Assembly (NCBI GenBank): GCA_903944755.1
Contig: CAJATB010000117.1
Span: 1-36,819 of the forward strand
Source of the DNA: an uncultured Bacteroidota bacterium
GTDB taxonomy: Bacteria; Bacteroidota; Bacteroidia; Chitinophagales; Chitinophagaceae
Direction: 5' to 3'
Length of the DNA stretch: 36,819 bases
Position 1 is the first letter of the stretch; each line of letters begins with the position of its first letter. The notes beneath the pieces were generated by a model. The model was not told where the DNA came from. It worked only from the letters and a program-made list of their open reading frames with translations, and made no database searches. This document shows positions 28,756 to 34,874 of this stretch, one piece after another. The position numbers were made by a program, and so were the translations under genes.

Positions 28756-31167
28756 TTATTTTCTGATTTCTGCTTGAATATTTTTTTCAAAAAGCTGAAT
28801 TAATTTTTTCATCATTCCGTCTATTTCAGTATCGGTCAAAGTTTTGTCGTCAGCATTAAACACAAAATTAATAGCAACTGACTTTTTTTGATGACCCAGC
28901 TTTTCACTTTCAAAAATGTCAAAAACACGTGTGTCTTTTAAGGATGCTAAATTGGCTTCTGCAATACAAAGTTCAATAGCTTCATAGTTAGTGGCTTGTG
29001 CAACAACCAAAGCTAAATCTCTTTCTATAGACGGGTATTTAGAAACTTCCTTGTATATTACTTTTTTACTTTGATACAATGCAAACAAGGTCGCTAAATC
29101 AAAGTTTATATACACTACTGGCTGCTTAATACCAAAGGCTTGAAGTTTAGTTGTGCCAATTACTTGAAGTTGCCCCACAGTTTGCTTGTTGTATACAAAA
29201 TCAATTTGCCCATTATTGCTGGTTTTCCAGTTACCCCCATCCATACCAAGTATACTAAATATTGCTTGCGCGATTCCTTTTGCTACAAAAAAATCTTGTT
29301 CTATTCCTTTGTTTCTCCAGCCGTCTTCTTGTTGTTTACCTGAAATATAAATAGCCAATTGCGCTGCTTCATAATATTTCCCTTTTAGGGATTTTCCATA
29401 CACTTTACCCATTTCAAAAAACGAGATATTTGTATTTTTTCTGTTTGCATTATAAGCAATTGTTTCTAAGCCCGTCTCCAACATGGAAGGACGCATTACA
29501 TCTAATTCGGCACTTAAATTATTAAGCATCTTTACGGTAGTCTGCAAAACCTCCTCCGTGAAATAAGCGCTATTAGTAATGGAGTTCGTTAAAATTTCAG
29601 TGTATCCACGGCCTACTAAAAAATTAGCTATTTTTTCTTTAAACTTTTCACTTTGTTCTAAAGGATCAATGGAAGGGCTAATAGTAATTGAACTTGGAAT
29701 AGCAATATTATCAAGGCCATCAATCCGCAATACCTCTTCTACTAAATCGGCAGGCAAGCTAATGTCTGGCTTATGATGAGGCACCGCCACTTCAATACTT
29801 AATTCGTCGGCTTGTATGAATTCAAAACCTAAGCTTGTTAAAATTGTTTTTACCTGTGCAGCAGAATAATGCTTGCCGCTTAATTTTTTCAAATAAGCAT
29901 AGGTTAATTTTACCGACGTTTTCTTAGCAGGATTAGGATATACATCCACCACTTCACTGCACTTTCCTCCAGCAATTTCTTGAATCATCGCCGCAGCTCG
30001 TTCTAAAACCTTTACTGTGGCTGCTATATCAACACCCTTCTCAATCCTAGTAGCAGCATCGGTTCTAAGGCCATGATGTACCGATGTTTTACGTACGTGT
30101 ACGTTTTCAAACCAAGCACTTTCTAAAAATAAGGATGTCGTTGTTTCTTTTACCCCACTTTTTAAACCACCAAAAACGCCCGCAATACATAATGGTTTTT
30201 CAAAGTCACTTACCATTAAATCGTTGGCAGTTAACTTTCGTTCAGTCCCTTCTAATGTGACAAATAAAGTCGCTGCTGGATATTTTTTTACAACGATTTT
30301 ATTATCCTTTATTTCAGCTGCATCAAATGCATGCAAGGGTTGCCCTGTTTCGTGTAAAATATAATTCGTAATGTCTACAATATTGTTAATTGAACGCACG
30401 CCAATTGCTTGTAAGCGATTGCGCAACCAAGCAGGGGAAGCTTTTACTTTCACCCCTTCAATTACCATACCACTATACCTTCCGCAAGCTATTGTTTCTT
30501 CAATCGTTACAGCATAAGGTACAATTGAACTATCCTTTATTGCAAGCTTCGTTAATGGATTAATGGCAGTAACTGGTTTTTCATGGTAAGATAAATACGC
30601 GCAAACATCCTTCGCTACGCCATAATGGCTCATTGCATCCATTCTATTTGGAGTCAAGCCTATTTCAAAAATCCAGTCTTGATAATAGTCATATAATTCG
30701 GCAACAGCAGTGCCTGGTTTAGTTGCAGTGTCCAACACCATAATGCCACCATGGTCATCACTTAAACCAATCTCATCTTCGGCACAAATCATACCCTCAC
30801 TTTCTTCTCCTCTTATTTTAGCCAATTTCATGGTAATACCCTGTGCTGCACCTTTTGGGAAAATAGTAGTTCCAATAGGTGCTACTACTACTTTTTGTCC
30901 AATTGCAATATTAGAAGCGCCGCAAACAACATTCAACATTATGTCTTTGCCAATATTTACTTTAGCTAACTTTAACTTATCTGCATTAGGATGTTGAATT
31001 AATTCCATCACCTCTCCCACTACCAAGCCAGCCAAGCCGCCTTTGTAATTCTCGAAGGATTCTAAGGACTCAACTTCTAATCCTATAGAAGTCAATATAG
31101 TAGATAACTTTTCTGGGCTTATTGTATCAGGTAAATATTCACTCAGCCAGCGATAACTAATCGTCAT
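28756..31167 (-). CDS. pheT: Phenylalanine--tRNA ligase subunit beta
   Basis: MTISYRWLSEYLPDTISPEKLSTILTSIGLEVE, GANIA-type tRNA-binding domain, B5 domain and ferredoxin-fold anticodon-binding C-terminus. Confidence 0.98.
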   Translation of the reverse strand: MTISYRWLSEYLPDTISPEKLSTILTSIGLEVESLESFENYKGGLAGLVVGEVMELIQHPNADKLKLAKVNIGKDIMLNVVCGASNIAIGQKVVVAPIGTTIFPKGAAQGITMKLAKIRGEESEGMICAEDEIGLSDDHGGIMVLDTATKPGTAVAELYDYYQDWIFEIGLTPNRMDAMSHYGVAKDVCAYLSYHEKPVTAINPLTKLAIKDSSIVPYAVTIEETIACGRYSGMVIEGVKVKASPAWLRNRLQAIGVRSINNIVDITNYILHETGQPLHAFDAAEIKDNKIVVKKYPAATLFVTLEGTERKLTANDLMVSDFEKPLCIAGVFGGLKSGVKETTTSLFLESAWFENVHVRKTSVHHGLRTDAATRIEKGVDIAATVKVLERAAAMIQEIAGGKCSEVVDVYPNPAKKTSVKLTYAYLKKLSGKHYSAAQVKTILTSLGFEFIQADELSIEVAVPHHKPDISLPADLVEEVLRIDGLDNIAIPSSITISPSIDPLEQSEKFKEKIANFLVGRGYTEILTNSITNSAYFTEEVLQTTVKMLNNLSAELDVMRPSMLETGLETIAYNANRKNTNISFFEMGKVYGKSLKGKYYEAAQLAIYISGKQQEDGWRNKGIEQDFFVAKGIAQAIFSILGMDGGNWKTSNNGQIDFVYNKQTVGQLQVIGTTKLQAFGIKQPVVYINFDLATLFALYQSKKVIYKEVSKYPSIERDLALVVAQATNYEAIELCIAEANLASLKDTRVFDIFESEKLGHQKKSVAINFVFNADDKTLTDTEIDGMMKKLIQLFEKNIQAEIRK

Positions 31168-31227: not shown

Positions 31228-31311
31228 AGTGAATAACTGTAAAATCAACGTGCAAAACCCGTGTATAACCTAAATTTTATGTTAATTGTTATCGTTGAGG
31301 CTTGTGCATAA
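31228..31311 (-). promoter_or_regulatory. Cluster of four DnaA-box-like 9-mers
   Basis: Minus strand: TTATGCACA (31303-31311, fits TTATNCACA), TTATACACG (31260-31268), TTTTGCACG (31249-31257) and TTATTCACT (31228-31236), each of the last three with one mismatch to TTWTNCACA. All same orientation. Confidence 0.45.
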
Positions 31312-31385
31312 CCAAAAAATAAAATTAAATTTCTTGTTGTGCGATTTCCGAAGGATTTTCGCAGTAAGAAAACAGGTTAAAATCC

Positions 31386-32954
31386 ATGGCCCTCCCAAAT
31401 ATCAATACCAGCAGGACAAGAAAAAAGAGTACAACAATTGACGTCAGTAGCATGATGTATGGCAAAATTCCACCTCAAGCTAAGGAGTTAGAAGAAGCTG
31501 TTTTAGGTGGAATTCTACTTGAAAAAAGCGCCTTCGATACGGTTACTGAAATATTGAAGCCCGAGTGTTTTTATACAGAAGGACATCAAATGATTTTCCA
31601 TGCGATGCAAGGACTTCAATTAAAGAATGAGCCAATTGACATGTTGACCGTAGTTGAAGAACTAAAAATGCGCGAGCAATTAGATATGGTAGGTGGCGCC
31701 TATTATATTTCCAAACTAACCAATGTGGTGGTGTCTACCGCAAACATTGATGCACACGCTAGAATTGTTTTACAAAAATTTATACAAAGAGAACTTATTA
31801 GAATAAGTGGCGAAGTGATTGCAAATGCTTATGAAGATAGCACGGATGTATTTGATTTATTAGATGATAGTGAAACGAAAATGTTCAATATCACGAATAA
31901 TTATTTGAAGAAAAATTTCGTTGACATAGGAGATGCACTTGCACATGCAGTTAATAGAATTGATGAATTAAGAACCAAGAAAGATGAAATTTCTGGTGTG
32001 CCTAGTGGCTTTGCTTCATTAGACAGAATTACTTATGGTTGGCAACCTACCGATTTAATTATTTTAGCAGCACGTCCATCTGTGGGTAAAACAGCGTTTG
32101 CTTTGAACCTTGCGCGTAATGCGGCATTGCACCCTACTAAACCACAAGCGGTTGGTTTCTTTAGTTTAGAGATGAGTGCTTCACAATTAGTACAACGTAT
32201 TTTAAGTGCGGAGAGTGAAATTAAAATGGAGAAAATATCGAGAGGTAAATTAGAAGATTACGAATACCAACAATTAACAAGCAAGGGTATTAAAAGGCTA
32301 GAAACTGCTCCAATTTATATTGACGACACTGCTGCACTAAACATTTTTGAATTTAGAGCAAAGGCAAGAAGGCTTGTAAATAAACATCAGGTTAAAATTA
32401 TCATTATTGACTACTTGCAATTAATGAGTGGCTCTGGCGATAGAAATTCAAATCGTGAACAAGAAATTAGTAATATTTCCCGAAGTTTAAAAGCATTGGC
32501 AAAAGAATTACAAATTCCAATTATTGCATTATCTCAGTTAAGTCGTGCGGTAGAAACAAGAAAGGAAAGCAAGATGCCGCAATTAAGTGATTTACGTGAA
32601 TCAGGAGCAATCGAGCAAGATGCTGATATGGTTATGTTTATTTACCGACCTGAATATTATGAAGTAATGAGTAATGAGATGGGCGAAAGTACACAAGGAG
32701 AGACCCATATTCGTATCGCAAAACACAGAAATGGTTCCTTAGATTTAATAAAACTAAGAGCACGCCTAGATATTCAACGCTTCGAAGAATGGGAAGGAGA
32801 AGGTGGTATTCCAGGGCTTGGCAATAACTATAAACCTATTCAACCTACTAGCAATAGTGGTGGCGGCGCAGATGGCGGCAGATTTTTTATTCAAGGTAGC
32901 AAAATGAATGGTGGTGAATTTGACGAAGGCATGGACGGAGATCAACCTTTTTAA
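31386..32954 (+). CDS. dnaB: Replicative DNA helicase DnaB
   Basis: PPQAKELEEAVLGGILLE N-terminus, RPSVGKTAFALNLARNAA Walker A, IIIDYLQLMSG Walker B, SQLSRAVETR and DLRESGAIEQDADMVMFIYR. Confidence 0.98.
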   Translation: MALPNINTSRTRKKSTTIDVSSMMYGKIPPQAKELEEAVLGGILLEKSAFDTVTEILKPECFYTEGHQMIFHAMQGLQLKNEPIDMLTVVEELKMREQLDMVGGAYYISKLTNVVVSTANIDAHARIVLQKFIQRELIRISGEVIANAYEDSTDVFDLLDDSETKMFNITNNYLKKNFVDIGDALAHAVNRIDELRTKKDEISGVPSGFASLDRITYGWQPTDLIILAARPSVGKTAFALNLARNAALHPTKPQAVGFFSLEMSASQLVQRILSAESEIKMEKISRGKLEDYEYQQLTSKGIKRLETAPIYIDDTAALNIFEFRAKARRLVNKHQVKIIIIDYLQLMSGSGDRNSNREQEISNISRSLKALAKELQIPIIALSQLSRAVETRKESKMPQLSDLRESGAIEQDADMVMFIYRPEYYEVMSNEMGESTQGETHIRIAKHRNGSLDLIKLRARLDIQRFEEWEGEGGIPGLGNNYKPIQPTSNSGGGADGGRFFIQGSKMNGGEFDEGMDGDQPF

Positions 32955-33692: not shown

Positions 33693-34874
33693 ATGAGAGT
33701 GGCCGAAGTAAATACACCAAGTTTAGAAAAGACCTTTTTAGACCTCAATGCAACTGTCAATGAGGGTAACGCTAATTATATAAGGCCCCTTGATAAAGAG
33801 GTGCTTCAAGTGTTTGATCGAAATAAAAATAAGTTGTTCCAGAATGGCGATGCGAAGAAATGGGTAATCCAAAATAATGCAGGAGAAGCTATTGGACGTA
33901 TTGCAGCATTCTACTATTCAAAATATAAAAATAAAGGAACCGACTTCCCGGTTGGGTGTGTAGGCTATTTTGATTGCATTGATAATCAGGATGCTGCCAA
34001 CTTATTATTTGATACTGCAAAAAGCTGGTTGGCAGAAAACGGCATGGAGGCAATGGATGGCCCTATTAATTTTGGAGATAGGGATAAATGGTGGGGCTTA
34101 ATGGTTGAAGGTTTTCATATGGAACCTATGTACGGCATGTCGTATAACCCTCCTTATTATGAGCAGTTATTAACCAATTATGGTTTTGAAAACTATTATA
34201 ATCAATATTACTATAAGCTAAATATAGTTGACGAATTGCCTCCTCGGTTTAAGGAGCGTTATGAAAAATTTAAAGCAAAACCTGAATACCAAGCTAGGCA
34301 TTTAGATAAAAATAATTTAGAAAAATACGCACAGGACTTTGTAACTATTTATAATGCGGCATGGGCACAACATGGAGAGGCTAAGGCTATTACACTTGAG
34401 CAAATTATGAAATTGTTCAAAACATTAAAACCAATTATGGACGCACGCGTGATTTGGTTTGCCTATTATAAAGAGGAGCCAATTGCCATGTTCATTAATG
34501 TGCCGGATGTAAATCAATATTTTAAGCATTTTGACGGACAACTAGGACTAATCCAAAAAATTCAATTATTATGGATGAAATGGAGAGGCCAAAATCAACG
34601 ATTAACTGGCTTAGCATTTGGGGTAGTTCCAAAATACCAGTCATTAGGCATTGATAGCTTTTTGATTTATTCGAGTGCCTTGTTAATTTACAAGATTGAT
34701 ACCTACAAAGAATACGAAATGGGTTGGGCCGCCGACTGGAACCCAAAAATGGTAAATATATACAAAAGCCTAGGTGCAAAACCTAGCCGACGTATGGTCA
34801 CTTTTAGACATATTTTCGACACCAATGCACGCCCTTTTGAGCGACACCCTGTTATGGAATATTCAGGGCAATAA
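33693..34874 (+). CDS. Conserved hypothetical protein, probable GNAT/acyltransferase-like fold
   Basis: 393-aa ORF; motifs DGPINFGDRDKWWGLMVEGF and MGWAADWNPKMVNIYKSLGAKPSRRMVTFRH resemble GNAT-superfamily-like Bacteroidota proteins. Confidence 0.65.
   Translation: MRVAEVNTPSLEKTFLDLNATVNEGNANYIRPLDKEVLQVFDRNKNKLFQNGDAKKWVIQNNAGEAIGRIAAFYYSKYKNKGTDFPVGCVGYFDCIDNQDAANLLFDTAKSWLAENGMEAMDGPINFGDRDKWWGLMVEGFHMEPMYGMSYNPPYYEQLLTNYGFENYYNQYYYKLNIVDELPPRFKERYEKFKAKPEYQARHLDKNNLEKYAQDFVTIYNAAWAQHGEAKAITLEQIMKLFKTLKPIMDARVIWFAYYKEEPIAMFINVPDVNQYFKHFDGQLGLIQKIQLLWMKWRGQNQRLTGLAFGVVPKYQSLGIDSFLIYSSALLIYKIDTYKEYEMGWAADWNPKMVNIYKSLGAKPSRRMVTFRHIFDTNARPFERHPVMEYSGQ

Follow-up and report, generated by a model that had tools for sequence, protein, structure and literature searches.

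The divergent gap between pheT and dnaB in a Chitinophagaceae genome is, in our judgement, probably a DnaA-responsive control region for dnaB, in which helically phased sites overlap a predicted promoter. Comparative data lend good support to the proposal of an earlier note that dnaB has a DnaA-controlled promoter, insofar as a conserved, one-orientation, helically phased array of DnaA-box-like sites follows dnaB and not pheT. The decisive evidence for the array is its conservation, together with a genome-wide search for box pairs.

DnaA-box-like sites between pheT and dnaB

The window is the whole 36.8-kb stretch of DNA that was analysed. It is contig C117 of a genome of 1.98 Mb in 300 contigs (88% complete); among named relatives, Sediminibacterium/Chitinophagaceae MAGs are the closest to this genome. 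Pfam confirmed PheT, DnaB, RsmE and DnaX at the locus, and the gap between the first two is 218 bp long, as the earlier note had it (Table 1). A 393-aa open reading frame on the plus strand between rsmE and dnaX (window positions 33693-34874) is without a Pfam match.

Table 1. Features of the pheT-dnaB region, in window coordinates
Feature	Position	Strand	Description
pheT (phenylalanyl-tRNA synthetase beta chain)	28756..31167	-	Pfam B3_4, tRNA_synthFbeta, FDX-ACB; divergent neighbour
DnaA-box-like site 1	31228..31236	-	TTATTCACT, 1 mismatch to TTATNCACA
DnaA-box-like site 2	31249..31257	-	TTTTGCACG, 2 mismatches to TTATNCACA; 2 bp from site 3
DnaA-box-like site 3	31260..31268	-	TTATACACG, 1 mismatch to TTATNCACA
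Degenerate fifth site, in register	31280..31288	-	CAATTAACA; 3 mismatches here, weak by itself
DnaA box 4	31303..31311	-	TTATGCACA, perfect match to TTATNCACA
Presumed dnaB promoter	31302..31333	+	TTG (31302-31304), 21 bp, TAAATTTC (31326-31333)
dnaB (replicative helicase; presumed target gene)	31386..32954	+	Pfam DnaB, DnaB_C

The four minus-strand 9-mers first reported for this gap are present where they had been placed, and the distances of 21, 11 and 43 bp between their starts were right. So were the mismatch counts of sites 1 and 3 (one each) and of box 4 (none); site 2, however, has two mismatches and not one. When the degenerate fifth site is counted, the spacings become 21, 11, 20 and 23 bp, i.e. 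whole helical turns. The final consensus A is absent from three of the four 9-mers.

Among 16 aligned members of the subgroup to which the window belongs, the mean frequency of the top base is 0.84 in box columns vs 0.61 between boxes. The columns that drift are mainly position 5 (the N of TTATNCACA) and position 9, and TTAT and CAC largely hold. At site 1, TTATNCAC is retained in 14 of the 16, the remaining two being gapped there, and at the position of site 2 the subgroup retains TTTTGCAC or a similar 9-mer. The fifth site has the core ATGCACA or ATCCACA in relatives, and its columns 31280-31282 and 31285 are invariant in all 16. Some members of the subgroup, e.g. L005, L007 and L092, show only one or two recognisable boxes.

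Conservation, orientation and phasing

Perfect matches to TTATNCACA are not over-represented genome-wide (63, vs 89 for the reversed control); single boxes therefore mean little, and the cluster needed comparative support. The gap is the only spot in the window with three boxes (at most one mismatch) inside 200 bp. Set against shuffled sequence, a comparison that the earlier note had proposed, the cluster alone proved mildly unusual: 26 of 5000 first-order Markov versions of the gap, or 0.5% per gap of the same length, hold at least three boxes with at most one mismatch.

We gathered dnaB upstream regions from about 110 loci and counted boxes, again with at most one mismatch, in 79 non-redundant Chitinophagaceae regions (26,070 bases). 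These hold 218 boxes on the minus strand vs 38 on the plus strand. For comparison, 26 and 15 are expected under the Markov model, 37 and 13 are obtained with the reversed motif, and 200 permuted motifs reach a mean of 21 and a maximum of 65. Spacings between adjacent boxes peak at 21, 43, 32, 41, 22, 12 and 11 bp. The best helical period is 10.7 bp, with R = 0.68 (null of 2000 jitters: mean 0.11, maximum 0.27) and R = 0.63 after the loci were collapsed to 48 distinct spacing patterns; since related sequences are non-independent, this period and the roughly 8-fold enrichment overstate significance, although the motif controls use the same sequences. Conservation of the 9-mers in orthologous gaps had been suggested as a check, and both the 79 regions and the 16-member alignment bear it out.

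Chance matches in an AT-rich gap would be in keeping with single boxes that show no genome-wide excess, and with a cluster that alone is a 0.5% event, but the family-wide enrichment, the orientation bias and the phasing all speak against them. A chance origin of the array was rejected on the Markov, reversed-motif and permuted-motif controls and on conservation, and we regard its probability as close to nil.

Outside the family the enrichment weakens. In other families of the order we counted 45 boxes vs about 10 expected, in both orientations, and in more distant members of the class 22 vs about 5; at dnaB upstream regions of other classes of the phylum there is no enrichment (6 boxes vs 5 expected). 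Because the enrichment declines with phylogenetic distance, the strict one-strand phased form of the array is a feature of the family Chitinophagaceae. Upstream regions of dnaB are box-rich across the class, but arranged differently; in other orders, e.g. at L321-L324, plus-strand box-like pairs lie about 20-21 bp apart at approximately -97 to -67 of dnaB. A single plus-strand TTCTGCACA, within TCTTTCTGCACA, is conserved in other genus members (e.g. L102, L105 and L110) at approximately -230 to -300 of dnaB, about 55 bp beyond the minus-strand array, and is absent from the window's subgroup.

Linkage of the array to dnaB

At 24 loci dnaB is without an adjacent pheT. At least two minus-strand boxes are kept before dnaB in 17 of these and at least one in 23, and the array thus belongs to dnaB. 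Searching 18 genomes of the same genus for two same-strand copies of TTATNCAC within 20-50 bp gave 40 matches, of which 20 precede dnaB and 8 either precede ppiD or belong to the ppiD-upstream sequence type. Ten others are scattered, vs 16 for the reversed control, i.e. there is no excess outside dnaB and ppiD. Tight same-strand box pairs therefore recur only at the dnaB and ppiD upstream regions of these 18 genomes. The pattern is a strict one, such that larger genus genomes, for instance G010, G027 and G033, do not score, their dnaB arrays being present with one-mismatch boxes. The remaining two matches form an array like that upstream of dnaB on a second contig of G024 (C225:3310-3392), possibly a strain duplicate in the MAG. 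A fourth pair match in the window's own genome, C100:9703, was dropped as it appears to lie inside a predicted coding frame.

The genome's own DnaA has standard N-terminal, ATPase and DNA-binding domains (Bac_DnaA_C, 5.9e-30), and its box-binding domain is intact, with the GGRDHTTV signature; TTATNCACA should therefore be a site for this protein. One could argue that another regulator with a similar motif binds the sites, given that position 9 varies in three of the four, or that the sites control pheT, which diverges from the same gap. The same motif is clustered in the likely oriC, however, and the drift falls at the N of the DnaA box, while the boxes remain at dnaB where pheT is elsewhere, for which reason pheT is not favoured as the target. 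We consider an explanation of this kind improbable.

The likely replication origin

The earlier note also allowed for an oriC-like element in the gap and named the GC-skew minimum as a check. With the window's genome in 300 contigs, we ran this check on two complete genomes of the same genus, G017 and G010, by sampling 20 kb per 77-92 kb and then reading continuously near the minimum of cumulative skew. In G017 the minimum lies at about 2.278 Mb, with a secondary one at about 2.294 Mb, and dnaB at 2.637 Mb; in G010 the minimum lies at about 0.9495 Mb and dnaB at 1.4146 Mb. The minima are thus 0.34-0.47 Mb away from dnaB, which speaks against the oriC reading. The minimum coincides with the nadA/ppiD gap in G010 and is within 16 kb of it in G017, and in both genomes that gap has its own cluster of box-like sites.

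In the window's own genome nadA had no match, and ppiD was located instead, divergent from recA. The gap between ppiD and recA (C194:22376-23142; L289:12376-13142) is 78% AT, shows a local skew switch and contains eight boxes with no more than one mismatch; two of its boxes are perfect (TTATACACA), on opposite strands and 22 bp apart. Since the skew minimum falls on or near the nadA/ppiD gap in the two complete relatives, the ppiD/recA gap (nadA/ppiD in relatives) is the likely oriC. In G034, a nearer relative, a partial skew of the available contigs was without a clear minimum at either dnaB or ppiD.

That the pheT-dnaB gap is itself the chromosomal origin, or a second one, might be argued from a DnaA-box array beside an AT-rich tract between divergent genes, and from local dips of cumulative skew in the window and around dnaB in G017. 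These dips, however, follow gene orientation, which alone would give the dip at dnaB. Together, the position of the global minima in the two relatives and the box cluster of the ppiD gap led us to reject an oriC at pheT/dnaB, to which we would assign only a very slight probability. An oriC beside dnaA was likewise rejected, dnaA lying at position 509 in G017 and at 1.812 Mb in G010, away from the minima; in the window's own genome dnaA has just a single box (at most one mismatch) close to its upstream side (C109:2710).

The predicted promoter and its possible control

The AT-rich stretch, which the earlier note thought could unwind, does adjoin the boxes, but it holds the invariant promoter-like TAAATTTC, and unwinding is not a necessary role for it. 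TAAATTT (31326-31332) is unchanged in 16 of 16 subgroup members and resembles the Bacteroidota -7 element TAnnTTTG (PMC9723704). We therefore read the tract as a putative promoter with a -7-like TAAATTTC rather than as an unwinding element. Elsewhere in the genus a TATATTCG block, conserved to the same degree, follows the array on its downstream side, and the distances from the last box to the promoter-like element cluster at 13-14, 41-43, 53, 63-65 and 85-86 bp.

We infer from the sequence that DnaA binds the gap, that the tabulated promoter is used, and that binding affects transcription. Four to five same-orientation sites set apart by whole turns would align DnaA molecules along a single face of the helix, over a region that abuts the predicted dnaB promoter from upstream and extends into it. 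The perfect box at 31303 would serve as the anchor, and an increase in active DnaA would lead to cooperative occupation of the weaker sites, i.e. those without the final A, such that the output of dnaB would follow the level or nucleotide state of DnaA. One perfect box at the promoter with weaker in-phase boxes upstream is the layout to be expected for cooperative filling. Box 4 may overlap the presumed -33 position, and such an overlap would suggest repression at high DnaA in the window's subgroup. Activation is suggested by other genus members, whose array stops short of the promoter-like block on its upstream side.

It could also be hypothesized that the array serves chiefly as a reservoir of DnaA, or as a datA- or DARS-like site for switching between DnaA-ATP and DnaA-ADP, located by dnaB without controlling its transcription. 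Apart from the likely oriC no recurrent phased box array is stronger, its distance from the skew minimum is 0.34-0.47 Mb in two relatives, and chromosomal titration of DnaA does occur in E. coli (PMC12371093). A reservoir would not, however, be required to follow dnaB through changes of its upstream neighbour, as the array does, and the preferred distances to the promoter-like element that are kept would be needless for it. We hold this function to be unlikely.

Discussion

Our results favor DnaA-responsive control of dnaB from the pheT-dnaB gap. A broader hypothesis, which we put forward tentatively and think doubtful, is that in Chitinophagaceae DnaA has, away from the origin, an oriC-like and helically phased cooperative array as its dedicated sensor, linking synthesis of the replicative helicase to initiation potential, and that this array is essentially the only non-origin target of its kind in the genome, perhaps serving also as a reservoir.

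To our knowledge, little is known of initiation control in Bacteroidota. A literature search, largely without subscription papers, found no paper naming both Chitinophagaceae and DnaA boxes. The family-wide array at dnaB would provide a specific and testable DnaA target for this phylum, and it is accompanied by a likely oriC in the ppiD/nadA/recA region, not beside dnaA.

With oriC arrays the gap shares several same-orientation, in-phase boxes, weak ones included, beside AT-rich DNA. It differs from them in lying off the GC-skew minimum of relatives, in being accompanied by a separate likely oriC, and in having a promoter-like element within the AT-rich tract. The datA and DARS loci of E. coli likewise group DnaA boxes in a fixed layout away from the origin, whereas the array of the gap is tied to the upstream region of one gene.

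Closer parallels are found among the DnaA-controlled promoters of E. coli (dnaA, nrdAB, mioC, polA and purH), which also combine close pairs, promoter-near boxes, and strong and weak sites. E. coli DnaA prefers pairs of boxes 2-3 bp apart (PMC11317965), and sites 2 and 3 of the gap share this arrangement. Compared with these promoters the gap has more sites, in one orientation and at multiples of about 10.7 bp, a predicted promoter of the Bacteroidota type, and a different target gene.

The nearest counterpart is Caulobacter crescentus, in which DnaA boxes are predicted upstream of dnaB and the gene belongs to the DnaA regulon (Hottes et al. 2005, as reviewed in PMC8203912). In both cases, DnaA boxes upstream of dnaB are taken to mean that the initiator controls the helicase gene. 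Regulon membership in Caulobacter rests on an expression experiment and the Chitinophagaceae case on sequence; the Chitinophagaceae array, on the other hand, comprises four to five phased sites in one orientation, kept across a family of another phylum. The array would thereby extend the Caulobacter case, in which DnaA controls the helicase that it loads, to a further phylum.
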